NCBI RefSeq assembly: GCF_001426485.1
Contig: NZ_LMET01000001.1
Span: 925,217 to 989,216, forward strand
Reading direction: 5' to 3'
From: Aeromicrobium sp. Root472D3
GTDB taxonomy: Bacteria; Actinomycetota; Actinomycetes; Propionibacteriales; Nocardioidaceae
Length of the DNA stretch: 64,000 bases
Within the stretch, counting starts at the first letter, position 1, and every line of letters starts with the position of its first letter. A model generated the notes under the pieces. It saw nothing but the letters and a program-made list of their open reading frames with translations. It made no database searches and was not told the origin of the DNA. Below, one piece after another: positions 35,551 through 40,052 of the stretch. Position numbers and translations under genes: made by a program.

Positions 35551-35576
35551 GGAACCTAACGAGCATGCGACCCGTT
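35551..35576 (+). promoter_or_regulatory. Candidate ECF sigma-factor promoter
   Basis: GGAACC, sixteen bases, CGTT: the -35 and -10 pattern recognised by envelope-stress ECF sigma factors of the SigE type. It lies 49 bases before the FMN-binding lipoprotein start and would drive the three-gene flavin operon. Confidence 0.5.
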
Positions 35577-35624
35577 TGACCTGTTGAACCTTCATCCATC
35601 ACGCCGAGCCCAGGAGCCCGACCG

Positions 35625-36113
35625 ATGAACCTCCCCGCCCACAAGAAGATGCTCTCCGCCGCCGCGGCGGCCTCCGTCCTGCTGATCACCGCCGCGTGCG
35701 GCACCAGCGAGGAGTCCGACTCCGGAGCGTCGACCCCGGCGGCCACGTCGGCCGCCCCGACGTCCGACGCGCCGACCGAGGAGTCCGAGACCCCCGACGT
35801 CGGAGCCGAGGAGGCCGGCTACGCCGACGGCACGTACGAGGCCGAGGGCAGCTACAGCAACCCGGGCGGCGAGTCGACCGTCAAGGTCGAGCTGACGCTG
35901 TCGGACGGCACGATCTCCGACGTCACCGTGACGCCCGAGGCGTCCAACGGCACGTCGAAGCAGTACCAGACCCAGTTCGCCGGCGGCATCGCCGACCAGG
36001 TCGTCGGGAAGAGCCTCGACGACCTCGACGTGTCGAAGGTGGCCGGATCCTCGCTGACCGCGACGGGCTTCAACGACGCGATCGACCAGATCAAGGCCGA
36101 AGCGAACGCCTGA
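35625..36113 (+). CDS. FMN-binding lipoprotein
   Basis: 162 aa. Lipoprotein signal: a hydrophobic stretch then ITAAC, with Cys25 as lipidation site. A Ser/Thr/Pro/Glu-rich linker (about 28-62) leads to an FMN_bind domain (about 65-162; DGTYEAEGSYSNPGGESTVK, ISDVTVTPEA). Near the C terminus, GSSLTATGFNDA contains the AT that would carry covalent FMN, Thr147 by my count, though the match to the flavinylation motif is loose. It should sit on the outer face of the membrane. The next gene is the ApbE flavin transferase. Confidence 0.85.
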   Translation: MNLPAHKKMLSAAAAASVLLITAACGTSEESDSGASTPAATSAAPTSDAPTEESETPDVGAEEAGYADGTYEAEGSYSNPGGESTVKVELTLSDGTISDVTVTPEASNGTSKQYQTQFAGGIADQVVGKSLDDLDVSKVAGSSLTATGFNDAIDQIKAEANA

Positions 36114-36114
36114 C

Positions 36115-36972
36115 GTGCACGCCTGGACGTTCGAGGCGATCGGCACCGCGTGGCAGATCGACACGCGCGAGCCGCTGGCCCCGGACGTCCGGGCGGCCGT
36201 CCTCGGGCGCATCGAGCGCTTCGACGAGGTCTGGTCGCGATTCCGTGACGACTCGCTCGTGGCCGCCGTCGCGCGCGGCGCGGGCCGGTGGCACGTGCCC
36301 GACGAGGCCGGCGCGCTGTTCGAGCTCTTCACCGAGCTCGACGACGTCACGGACGGGGCCGTGAACCCGCTGGTCGGTCAGACCTTGTCCGACCTGGGGT
36401 ACGACGCGTCCTACTCGCTGACCGCGTCGGACGAGCCGGCCGGCACCCCGCCGTGGTCGAGCATCGACCTGTCGGCCGGCGTCCTGACGACGTCCGGGCC
36501 CGTGCTCATCGACGTCGGTGCCGCGGGCAAGGGTCTGCTGGTCGACCTGGTGGCCGGGATCGTCGGCCGTGAGGTCGACCAGCTCACGGTCGACGCCAGC
36601 GGCGACCTCTACCACGGCGGCACCGCCCCGCTCCGGATCGCGCTCGAGCACCCCCTCGACGCGGCCCGCGCGATCGGCGTCGCCGAGATCGGCCCCGGCG
36701 ACGCCCTGTGCGCCTCGGCCACCAACCGCCGGGCCTGGGGAGACGGCCTGCACCACGTGCTCGACGCCCGCACCGGACGTCCGACGTCCGACGTCATCGC
36801 CACCTGGGTCGTCGCGCCGCGGTCGTGCATGCGGGCCGACGGCCTCGCGACCGCCCACTTCTTCGCCGATCCCGCGCTGCTGATGGAGCGCTTCGACCAC
36901 CAGTTCGTCCGCATGCACGCCGACGGCCGCGTCCAGTGGTCGCCAGACCTTCCCGGAGAGATCTTCACATGA
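36115..36972 (+). CDS. apbE: FAD:protein FMN transferase ApbE
   Basis: 285 aa from GTG 36115, one base after the previous stop. ApbE splits FAD and attaches FMN to a Thr of target proteins. Motifs are FDEVWSRFRDDS near 42, GAVNPLVGQTLSDLGYD near 80, IDVGAAGKGLLVD near 138, HHVLDARTGRP near 212, and MRADGLATAHF near 238. Its target is probably the lipoprotein encoded upstream. No signal peptide is seen, whereas many ApbE proteins are exported, which is worth noting. It overlaps the next gene by 4 bp. Confidence 0.93.
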   Translation: MHAWTFEAIGTAWQIDTREPLAPDVRAAVLGRIERFDEVWSRFRDDSLVAAVARGAGRWHVPDEAGALFELFTELDDVTDGAVNPLVGQTLSDLGYDASYSLTASDEPAGTPPWSSIDLSAGVLTTSGPVLIDVGAAGKGLLVDLVAGIVGREVDQLTVDASGDLYHGGTAPLRIALEHPLDAARAIGVAEIGPGDALCASATNRRAWGDGLHHVLDARTGRPTSDVIATWVVAPRSCMRADGLATAHFFADPALLMERFDHQFVRMHADGRVQWSPDLPGEIFT

Positions 36973-38543
36973 CCGCACTCGCCCCCGTCCGAGACGTCCT
37001 CGACCGCCAGCTCGGCAAGGTCACGATGTACCGGCTCGTGACGATCGTCCTGTCGCTGCTGGTCGTGGTGTTCACGATCTTCACCGCGACCGGCGTCATC
37101 GAGGGCCTGTCGACCGGCGACAACCTGATGGCGCTCGCCGTCCTGCTCGTCGCCTCGTACGTCGGCAGCCGCCTGATGGGTCTGGCGTTCCGCGTGCGCC
37201 CGCACGCCGAGTCGTCGATCATCACGGCCTTGCTCCTGTACTTCCTGTTCGTGCCGATCGTCCCGGTCGACACGGGCCAGCTGGTCTGGCTGGGCATCGC
37301 CGCGGTGCTGGCCCAGGCGTCGAAGTACGTCCTGGCGTGGCGCGGCCGCCACGTCTTCAACCCCGCCGCCGCCGGTGCCTTCCTCGTCGTCGTGCTGCAG
37401 GAGGTCGTGGGGCGCGAGGCCCGCATCAACGCCCTGTGGCAGACCGCCGCGACCGAGAAGCTCTTCCCGTTCGTCGCGGTCGGCGCGCTGCTCGTGCTGT
37501 GGCGCACCCGACGCCTCGGGGTCGGGCTGCTGTTCGTGGTCGTCGCGACGGTGCTGATCATGGTGCGGCTCGTCGACCAGGCCTCGCCCGACCAGTCGTT
37601 CCTCGACGTCCTGAAGCTCACGGCGTACTCGTACCCGATCGTCTTCCTCGCGGGCTTCATGCTGAGCGAGCCGCTGACCCTCCCGCCCCGGCGGCGCCAG
37701 CAGCTCGTGGTCGCGGCCGTGACCGCGGTCGTCTTCGCGTACCCGACGTGGATCCTCCTGCTGACCGACTCCCCGCCCGACCTCGGCGTGCTCGCGATCT
37801 CGCCCGAGATCGCCCTGCTGATCGGCAACCTCGTGGCCTTCGCGTTCGCGCGCCGGTCGGGGCTCGACCTCGAGCTCGAGACGTCGCGCCGGGTCGCGGG
37901 CGACGTCCACGAGCTGACGTTCCGGTCGCGTCGCGGCCTCGCGTTCGTCCCGGGTCAGTACCTCGAGCTGTCGGTGCCGCACCGCGGCATGGACAGCCGC
38001 GGCGCACGCCGGACGTTCAGCATCAGCTCGCCGCCGCAGGACGACCGTCTGGCCCTGACGCTGCGCGTGCCCGAGAAGTCGTCGAGCTTCAAGCGCGCCC
38101 TTCTCGACCTCGAGCCGGGGTCGCGCGTCCGTGGCACGGGCATCGGTGGCGACTTCGTCCTGCCGGCCGATCCGGCCACGCCGCTGCTGCTGGTCGCCGG
38201 CGGCATCGGCATCACGCCGTTCCTCAGCCAGCTGCGCCACGAGGGCTCGCGCGACGCCGTCCTCGTGTACGGGGCGACGTCGGCCGACGAGGTGCCCTTC
38301 GTCGAGGAGCTGGCGGGCGTCCGCGTCGTGCTGGTGTGCCCGGGACGTCCCGGCGGGCTGCCCGAGGGGTGGACGCACGTCGACGCCGCGTTCCTGTCGG
38401 CCGACGTCATCGCCGAGGCCGTGCCCGACCTGCGCGAGCGGCGCGCCTACGTGTCGGGCCCGCCGGCGATGGTCAACGCGGTGCGACCGGGGCTGCGCGG
38501 ACGGGTCGCCGGCCTCCGGACGGACTACTTCTCGGGTTACTGA
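36969..38543 (+). CDS. RnfD/NqrB-like membrane protein fused to FAD/NAD(P)H reductase
   Basis: 524 aa. Residues about 15-290 hold eight to nine membrane helices with RnfD/NqrB-like features (ESSIITALLLYFLF, GRHVFNPAAAGAF, GFMLSEPLTLPP). Residues about 295-524 form a ferredoxin-NADP-reductase-like module. It has FAD motif RTFSIS near 343, VAGGIGITPFLSQLR near 413, and C-terminal YVSGPPAMVNAV, which is the NAD(P) site. The fusion would take electrons from cytoplasmic NAD(P)H across the membrane to the flavinylated lipoprotein. Related flavin-based extracytosolic electron transfer is known; the end acceptor here is not. Confidence 0.88.
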   Translation: MTALAPVRDVLDRQLGKVTMYRLVTIVLSLLVVVFTIFTATGVIEGLSTGDNLMALAVLLVASYVGSRLMGLAFRVRPHAESSIITALLLYFLFVPIVPVDTGQLVWLGIAAVLAQASKYVLAWRGRHVFNPAAAGAFLVVVLQEVVGREARINALWQTAATEKLFPFVAVGALLVLWRTRRLGVGLLFVVVATVLIMVRLVDQASPDQSFLDVLKLTAYSYPIVFLAGFMLSEPLTLPPRRRQQLVVAAVTAVVFAYPTWILLLTDSPPDLGVLAISPEIALLIGNLVAFAFARRSGLDLELETSRRVAGDVHELTFRSRRGLAFVPGQYLELSVPHRGMDSRGARRTFSISSPPQDDRLALTLRVPEKSSSFKRALLDLEPGSRVRGTGIGGDFVLPADPATPLLLVAGGIGITPFLSQLRHEGSRDAVLVYGATSADEVPFVEELAGVRVVLVCPGRPGGLPEGWTHVDAAFLSADVIAEAVPDLRERRAYVSGPPAMVNAVRPGLRGRVAGLRTDYFSGY

Positions 38544-38903
38544 GCGGTAGGGTCCGTGTTCGTCTCGCGGCCCGTCGTTCCGGCGTTTATGCTCGAGGAG
38601 CCCCCGTCGGGCGGCGCCGTGTGCGCTTCTGTCGGAGGCCGATAATCGGCAGACCGGACCTGGACCTCGTCCCGACCGCGCGAGATGTGACCGGCCCCCG
38701 GGAGAGCGTCGGTCACATCACCTGGCGTCCCACCATGGGGCGCGTGCTCGCAACGCATCAGCACCCTCGGACCCCTGGAACCGGTCGGCTGACCCACTGC
38801 GTCGAGGATCCATCGCCCCTTGGTGCGCCGTGCCCTGCTGAGCCGCGCCGGCGTCAGGGGGACCCATCTGCCGGCCCCGGCCGCGGCACCTGAAGGATCG
38901 ACC
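38544..38903 (+). other. Structured non-coding leader before the ice-binding-like gene
   Basis: 360 bases with no supported gene. GCCGAT, one base, ATCGGC lies at about 38638-38650. GATGTGACCG and CGGTCACATC pair across a 16-base loop at about 38684-38719. The pair of hairpins suggests an RNA leader or regulatory region, but I cannot match it to a known riboswitch class. Confidence 0.4.
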
Positions 38904-40052
38904 ATGATCGCCTCGCACGTCCCGGCGCTGACGCGCCCCACTCGCCACCACCTCGTCCTCGCCACCGCCGCCACGGGCCTCGCCGCGGTCATCGCCGTCA
39001 CCGCCGTGTCGATGGCCGGCCCGGCCCGCGCCGCCGGCCCGCCGGACCCGGGCCTCGGCACAGCCCTCGACTACTCCGTGCTCGCCGGCGAAGGCGTGAC
39101 CAACACGGGCTCGACGACGGTCGTGGGCCTGGTGGCCTCGGCCGGCATCCAGACCACCGTGGCCGACAACGGCGCCATCAGCCCGCCCGGCAACGTGCGC
39201 CGCGGGGCCAATCTGGCTGTCTCGGCCGCCAAGGCCGACCTCCTGGTCGGGTACGGGCAGGCGGCTGCGGCCCCGGTCATCCCGAACACCCCGCTGCTCG
39301 GCGAGATCGGCGGTCAGACGCTCACGGGAGGCACCTACACGCGCGCAGGATCGCTCGGTTTCACCAGCACCTTGACGCTCGACGGCGAGAACGACCCGAG
39401 CTCGGTCTTCATCATCCAGGTCGCCGCGGACTTCAACGTCGCGTCGAGCGCGCAGGTAGTGTTCACCCGCGGCGCCCAGGCCTGCCACGTGTACTGGCAG
39501 ATCGGCAACGACGCGGTCATCGGCACCAACACGGACTTCCAGGGCACGATCCTCGCCGGCAACGACATCTCCGCCCAGACGGGGGCCACGTTCGCGGGGC
39601 GTCTGCTCTCGAACGTCGGTGCCATCACCCTCGACAGCAACACGTTCACGAGCCCGGTGTGCGCCGCCGCGACGACTGCGCCGCCGTCCTCGGCGACTCC
39701 TACTGCCACCACTCCCGCTCCGACCGCGACGACTCGTCCGACACCCCGTCCGACCAAGAGCACGGGCTCGGGCAAGGGCGGCTCGAACAGCGACTCCGAC
39801 GGCGGCTCGTCCGACGGCACCGGCGGCGGCAGCGACAGCGACAGCGACGGCTCGGACGGTGGAGCGGGAGACAGCGACTCCGTCGGTGGCGACGACTCCG
39901 ACGCGGACGCTGGCACGTCCAGCTCGACCGGCATCCCGGACGCCGGCGGACCGCCGCTGTTCCTGGCCCCCGTCGGCGCCCTCGCGGTGCTCGTCGGAGC
40001 CGGTCTGGTCATGGCGAGCCGCCGCCGTCAGCACGGCGCGCACCGCGGCTGA
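38904..40052 (+). CDS. Surface-anchored ice-binding-like protein (DUF3494)
   Basis: 382 aa from ATG 38904 (GAAGGA upstream). A signal peptide ends at GPARA near 43. Residues about 50-250 match the DUF3494 ice-binding fold (DYSVLAGEGVTNTGSTTVVG, AGSLGFTSTLTLDGENDPSS, DFQGTILAGNDISAQTGATF). A Thr/Pro linker and a Ser/Asp/Gly-rich stretch (about 255-340) follow. Then come IPDAGG, a hydrophobic helix and RRRQ. This looks like a wall-sorting signal in which LPxTG has become IPDAG, so anchoring may be by sortase or only by the helix. Members bind ice or act as adhesins; the role here is open. Confidence 0.85.
   Translation: MIASHVPALTRPTRHHLVLATAATGLAAVIAVTAVSMAGPARAAGPPDPGLGTALDYSVLAGEGVTNTGSTTVVGLVASAGIQTTVADNGAISPPGNVRRGANLAVSAAKADLLVGYGQAAAAPVIPNTPLLGEIGGQTLTGGTYTRAGSLGFTSTLTLDGENDPSSVFIIQVAADFNVASSAQVVFTRGAQACHVYWQIGNDAVIGTNTDFQGTILAGNDISAQTGATFAGRLLSNVGAITLDSNTFTSPVCAAATTAPPSSATPTATTPAPTATTRPTPRPTKSTGSGKGGSNSDSDGGSSDGTGGGSDSDSDGSDGGAGDSDSVGGDDSDADAGTSSSTGIPDAGGPPLFLAPVGALAVLVGAGLVMASRRRQHGAHRG

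Follow-up and report, generated by a model that had tools for sequence, protein, structure and literature searches.

NQR/RNF-like flavinylation systems were described by Meheust et al. in 2021 (eLife; PMC8238504) and modelled in 2024 (mSystems; PMC11334425), with Actinobacteria and CPR bacteria as the main groups reported. In these systems an extracytosolic FMN-binding protein and an ApbE accompany a single chain with an N-terminal NqrB/RnfD domain and a C-terminal PF00175 domain. According to these accounts, the FMN-binding protein uses an SGAT site, the flavinylation Thr of NqrB/RnfD is not conserved in the membrane subunit, and electron flow toward the outside is proposed, not measured (PMC8238504, PMC11334425). 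The literature searched yielded no experimental measurements on the family, and its architecture is known only from bioinformatics.

The operon described here lies in a window of 64,000 nucleotides, the whole stretch of DNA analyzed, from the 3.7 Mb genome of Aeromicrobium sp. Root472D3. It belongs to the kind already described: its layout of two subunits plus ApbE has been known since 2021 (PMC8238504), and its architecture is no different from theirs. The suggestion of a sequence-only reading of this DNA, that the mechanism may differ from described systems, needs correction as far as architecture is concerned. Gene order, domains, folds, conservation, co-occurrence, the missing ApbE signal, and the lack of conserved iron-sulphur or haem ligands together make it probable that the operon encodes an NQR/RNF-like flavin relay, in which electrons would pass from NAD(P)H through FAD and membrane flavin to lipoprotein FMN on the surface, with the FMN most likely loaded by ApbE before export. 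Since the Aeromicrobium operon is near-core and single-copy in a background devoid of RNF and NQR, it offers a clean genetic test of an all-flavin, two-protein wire.

Organization of the operon

The operon and the element preceding it comprise the following features.

About 35569..35596, + strand: conserved upstream element of the CCGTTTGACCTGTTGAACCTTCATCCAT type, recognized by conservation in close Aeromicrobium relatives
35625..36113, + strand: gene for an FMN-binding lipoprotein (162 aa, lipobox)
36115..36972, + strand: apbE, FAD:protein FMN transferase (285 aa, GTG start)
36969..38543, + strand: gene for an NqrB/RnfD–FNR fusion (524 aa)

The three open reading frames are co-directional, in the order lipoprotein–apbE–fusion, and occupy positions 35625–38543 of the + strand. 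They abut or overlap as the sequence-only reading had stated: the GTG start of apbE lies one base past the lipoprotein stop codon, and apbE and the fusion gene share an ATGA overlap. For the fusion gene, 36969 is the likely start; a mechanical list of open reading frames had placed it at 36708. The tight packing suggests that all three genes may be carried on a single transcript. No sigma-70-like promoter was found for the operon, and one weak terminator-like site is located 3' of it at 38573, results that say little because the DNA is so GC-rich. The upstream element, which precedes the lipoprotein gene and is shared with close relatives in Aeromicrobium, has the pattern CCGTT..GTTGAACCTTCATCCAT, and its TTGAAC is situated about 41 nt upstream of the start of that gene. 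The element occurs once in the genome when up to one mismatch is allowed, and related, partly duplicated forms are present at loci L044, L051–L053, and L066.

A lipoprotein with a presumed serine-type flavinylation site

The first gene product carries a Sec-type lipoprotein signal with the lipid-bearing Cys25 in a lipobox, followed by a Ser/Thr-rich linker and an NqrC/RnfG-type FMN_bind domain (about residues 67–162). As in the published systems, at least one member of the cluster of FMN-binding protein and ApbE thus bears a signal peptide or lipidation site. The Pfam FMN_bind match is sub-threshold in the window protein (E 7.7e-4, 20.5 bits against a cut-off of 22), and 22 of the 24 members of its family match, which upholds the earlier assignment as an FMN-binding lipoprotein. 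The AlphaFold model has a mean pLDDT of 74 overall and exceeds 90 across most of the FMN_bind domain. Its closest structure is domain 2 of SaFMN3 (8p2a; Z 10.6, 87 residues aligned, rmsd 2.0), in which covalent FMN has been measured experimentally, and holo NqrC (4xa7) is matched with Z 8.6. Taken alone, this structural match is weak because IscU and lipoate-ligase folds score nearly as high as the FMN-domain matches.

The presumed FMN acceptor is Ser143 within the motif VAGSSLT (residues 139–145); this Ser aligns with the flavinylated Thr of established sites. Those sites have the form [S/T]GA[S/T], and ApbE uses Ser sites in other proteins. Among 68 loci, a Ser form resembling [AS]GSSLT is found at 55 (VAGSSLT 41, VSGSSLT 12, VASSSLT 1, and VAGSSLS 1) and an SGA[ST] form at 13. 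In contrast to the SGAT site given in the accessible descriptions of NQR/RNF-like systems, the Aeromicrobium lipoprotein thus has a GSSLT-type Ser site. The motif had been called loose; on this evidence it is a conserved lineage variant and the candidate acceptor for the ApbE of this operon. Site type (SGAT or GSS) was seen to co-vary with ApbE type, a pattern confounded by phylogeny, since it follows two or three deep clades, and therefore not taken to prove that the lipoprotein is the substrate of ApbE.

A single-chain membrane and FNR subunit

In the fusion protein, residues 1–294 form an NqrB/RnfD-type membrane domain with 10 predicted helices, and residues from about 295 to 524 form a cytosolic FNR domain, so that a C-terminal cytosolic PF00175 domain is present in the same chain, as in the NQR/RNF-like systems. 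The AlphaFold model (pLDDT 91) and the distribution of basic residues, which lie mostly inside, agree on an N-in/C-in topology, which places the FNR domain in the cytosol. The C-terminal half matches NAD_binding_1 (PF00175; E 7.5e-6, 27 bits against a cut-off of 22) and contains two conserved FNR motifs, RRTFS for FAD (347–351) and GGIGITPF for the nucleotide (411–418). By structure it resembles NqrF and FNR-type enzymes (Z 23–25, rmsd 2.6–2.8).

For the membrane half, PF03116 (NQR2/RnfD) gave no match to the window protein at E 0.1; the same model matches 19 of 33 family members, at best with E 2.3e-11, and the family profile finds RnfD (8ahx_D) with E 1.9e-6. Three RnfD entries superpose with Z 22.4–22.9 and rmsd 6.1–6.5 over about 260 residues, 8rbq_D being the top match (Z 22.9, 260 aligned, rmsd 6.1); these matches support the fold and not its fine detail, because the rmsd is high and the aligned ranges extend into the FNR part. 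Taken together, the domain and fold matches confirm the protein as a single-chain RnfD/NqrB–FNR fusion. At the level of the outer loop after the invariant W157, some members have Thr and others Ser or Asn, variation that may reflect the published lack of a conserved NqrB/RnfD flavinylation Thr.

The RnfD/NqrB fold, the RnfG/NqrC-type FMN domain, and the NqrF-like FAD/NAD(P) domain are shared with RNF and Na+-NQR. Unlike those complexes, the operon specifies a single limb, with no ferredoxin domain, no iron-sulphur cysteines, and no ion-pumping complex. RNF and Na+-NQR contain the intramembrane iron-sulphur subunits RnfA/E or NqrD/E (PF02508), whereas nine genomes, including that of the window, gave no PF02508 match and control genomes did. 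No other Nqr or Rnf subunit gene lies beside the operon, which leaves just two electron-transfer subunits, as in the described NQR/RNF-like systems.

The fusion family has no conserved Cys, and the only conserved His residues are H128 in the membrane part and H338 in the FNR part. A haem or iron-sulphur conduit was rejected for want of ligand conservation. With no conserved Cys, one His in the membrane domain, and no PF02508 protein, the wire, if it conducts, would be all flavin. SpNOX and other NADPH oxidase-like enzymes and ferric reductases likewise join a membrane domain and an FNR domain in one chain, and the FNR halves superpose, but their membrane domains hold bis-His haems, in contrast to the single conserved membrane-domain His and the RnfD-like fold of the fusion.

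A group of stand-alone proteins of about 230 aa from the same phylum (L016–L035, family f12) matches only the FNR half. These proteins end in a tail of the D-[FY]-F-x-GY type, as does the fusion.

Where the flavin is attached

The transferase itself is identified by domain similarity (PF02424, E 1.1e-34) and by PDB FMN transferases (E 2e-11), in agreement with its earlier naming as ApbE. According to reviews, most ApbEs are exported, and those acting on exported substrates are placed outside. An extracytosolic ApbE requires an outside source of FAD; the Listeria enzyme (FmnB) is extracytosolic and depends on an FAD exporter (PMC9973259), whereas the ApbE of this operon is signal-less. Otherwise, the Listeria EET system (PplA/FmnB/Ndh2/EetAB) and MsrQ-like and PepSY-like systems share with the operon the use, predicted here, of an ApbE-flavinylated lipoprotein as the outer carrier in Gram-positives, and differ in the membrane conduit, which is quinone or haem based.

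Export segments in ApbE were sought by extending each frame upstream to the preceding stop and scoring the stretch of 40 residues that leads up to the conserved first strand. No segment with a 12-residue mean hydropathy of 1.6 was present at any of 70 loci, whatever the start codon, although these are not 70 independent cases because some share a genome. The E. coli ApbE, as a positive control, scored 2.68 by the same measure. The same threshold was reached by 67 of the 68 partner proteins, and in the remaining one (L071) the lipobox lies just past the scored stretch. The earlier observation that ApbE lacks an export signal thus holds at all assessable loci, and the signal typical of ApbEs with exported substrates is consistently missing; cytosolic ApbEs are known. 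A literature search for a signal-less ApbE with an exported substrate returned only a review, which is weak evidence of absence, and the accessible text of the literature searched gave no explanation for the combination.

Because ApbE has no export signal, the lipoprotein precursor is most likely modified in the cytosol, and flavinylation preceding Sec export is the likeliest order of events. In its specific form, in which the unfolded precursor is loaded by cytosolic ApbE and Sec exports a chain with covalent FMN near its C-terminus, perhaps for actinobacterial flavinylation generally, the proposal has roughly an even chance of being correct. What counts against loading before export is the unusual placement of a transferase and its exported substrate in separate compartments. 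Export through Tat, with the lipoprotein already folded and carrying its flavin, was also considered and is unlikely, given the few RR pairs in the signal regions.

Two other arrangements were considered, and both appear improbable. The enzyme could act on a cytosolic protein, as the cytosolic ApbE of Klebsiella modifies a cytosolic fumarate reductase, while the lipoprotein holds its flavin non-covalently or receives it from another enzyme. This would suit a transferase that is signal-less at every locus, but apbE lies between the lipoprotein and fusion genes at nearly all loci, and the lipoprotein has a conserved Ser in its GSS site. Moreover, the operon ApbE is the sole ApbE found in 26 of 37 good Aeromicrobium genomes, 11 of the 26 being single-contig assemblies, so that the lipoprotein, if flavinylated there, must be served by a signal-less ApbE. 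Equally doubtful is non-classical export of ApbE itself, followed by flavinylation of the lipoprotein on the outside, where known ApbEs with exported substrates do their work: no hydrophobic segment precedes the first strand within 40 residues at the 70 loci, and the partner proteins retain Sec or lipoprotein signals, which indicates that the export machinery is used for the partners. Loading before export, if true, would spare the cell the FAD export required in Listeria. More generally, the conserved pairing of a signal-less ApbE with an exported partner makes it testable where an extracytosolic flavoprotein is loaded and whether Sec moves a flavinylated chain.

Second ApbEs in the genus also start without a signal, as judged by eye. 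One of them (L176, 2928–4166, − strand; in its own genome on C2 near 420520) is preceded by a Ser/Thr-rich lipoprotein that has no FMN_bind domain and is possibly an unusual or degenerate flavinylation substrate; an MsrQ-like membrane protein follows, and a histidine kinase is encoded upstream. A separate cluster in G416 (L177, 2164–4794, − strand) combines a haem-type membrane domain fused to an FNR domain with an anchored FMN_bind protein that has an ISGAT site and with a signal-less ApbE.

Proposed electron route, direction, and candidate acceptors

In the proposed relay, the cytosolic FNR domain would oxidize NAD(P)H and reduce its FAD, and one or more non-covalent flavins would carry the electrons through the NqrB/RnfD-type membrane domain, with neither an iron-sulphur cluster nor a haem. 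The electrons would then pass to the covalent FMN on Ser143 of the lipoprotein, most likely attached to the precursor by ApbE in the cytosol before Sec export, and on to an extracytosolic acceptor, for which ferric iron, another metal, a quinone, and an envelope reductase are candidates. The sequence-only reading had likewise proposed transfer from NAD(P)H to the surface, a model that agrees with the published inference, itself a proposal (PMC8238504, PMC11334425), and that is the accepted hypothesis for these systems.

The direction of flow and the nature of the acceptor each have a competing interpretation. Electrons could enter from an extracytosolic reductant and pass through lipoprotein FMN and the fusion to NAD(P)+, as in the RnfG–RnfD–RnfC limb of RNF. 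The NqrB/RnfD limb of RNF and NQR moves electrons inward from extracytosolic FMN, and the proposed outward flow is that limb in reverse; the domain order of the operon mirrors the inward limb, and the membrane half of the fusion is RnfD-like by fold. Inward flow is nonetheless very unlikely here, as no extracytosolic dehydrogenase is conserved beside the operon in the surveyed loci, and passage from NADH (about −320 mV) to FMN (−184 mV in SaFMN3) is downhill, which favours the outward direction. A narrower role, in which the system reduces metal specifically to supply the uptake of divalent metals, is conceivable and rather doubtful. Among distant relatives, the operon is followed immediately by an Nramp gene in L089 and L097 (21 bp) and has one nearby in L093. 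In L096 the gene immediately after it encodes an MntC/ZnuA-type ABC importer, and in L076, L083, L087, and L097 a P-type cation ATPase is encoded immediately before it; VIT1 occurs in six published clusters. As a raw tally, taken without a background rate, the transporter neighbours hint at iron or manganese reduction. The best scores of the ATPases, however, are for transporters of Ca2+ (PMR1-type, below cut-off) or Mg2+ (MgtA, above cut-off), and the scores of the Nramps fall far under the MntH cut-off, so that the metal need not be redox-active. Furthermore, no metal transporter neighbours the operon in Aeromicrobium, and an IdeR/DtxR iron box upstream was rejected because the best matches did not exceed those in shuffled sequence.

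Ferric_reduct (PF01794) was not found in eight Aeromicrobium genomes; this negative is weak, since the search missed an MsrQ-like protein seen by eye near the second ApbE, and it does not make the operon the ferric reductase. In Aeromicrobium, the operon is flanked upstream by an FAD-dependent oxidoreductase and downstream by an ice-binding-like protein and ClpB, and none of these neighbours offers a clue to the acceptor. The argS/lysA-like neighbours in Arthrobacter, and the downstream two-component genes and upstream GlmU/PRPP-synthase genes in Microbacterium, were set aside as mere synteny. The ice-binding-like protein directly downstream of the operon (38904–40052, + strand; PF11999, E 3.7e-42) has a Ser/Asp-rich tail and a C-terminal hydrophobic anchor.

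Distribution and gene order

The operon is near-core in Aeromicrobium and patchy elsewhere. Of the 49 genomes of the genus, 46 have the fusion, and exactly these 46 also have the lipoprotein; G422, G424, and G440 lack both. At the class level, the count is 19 of 297 genomes, representing 5 of 114 genera, and full-length relatives occur in few genomes of the phylum sample. A neighbourhood survey of RnfD–FNR fusions, which the sequence-only reading had recommended, recovered the order lipoprotein–apbE–fusion in Micrococcaceae, Microbacteriaceae, and Nocardioidaceae, in Ktedonobacterales-type Chloroflexota, and in several CPR groups; because the order recurs across Actinobacteria, Chloroflexota, and CPR bacteria, the operon is not a chance arrangement.

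An apparent loss of the lipoprotein in G214, G420, and G433 was rejected, as its gene lies about 2.7 kb upstream. In G214 (L175, 1030–3635, + strand), a membrane protein and a WXG100-like protein (PF25547, E 1.9e-4, below cut-off) are inserted between the lipoprotein gene and apbE, and the lipoprotein gene is displaced in the same manner in G420 and G433. At two loci, L086 and L091, the fusion gene has neither the lipoprotein gene nor apbE nearby. In L091 it is followed by genes for a DsbA-like protein and a second, small membrane protein resembling VKOR, which suggests a different partner for the fusion.
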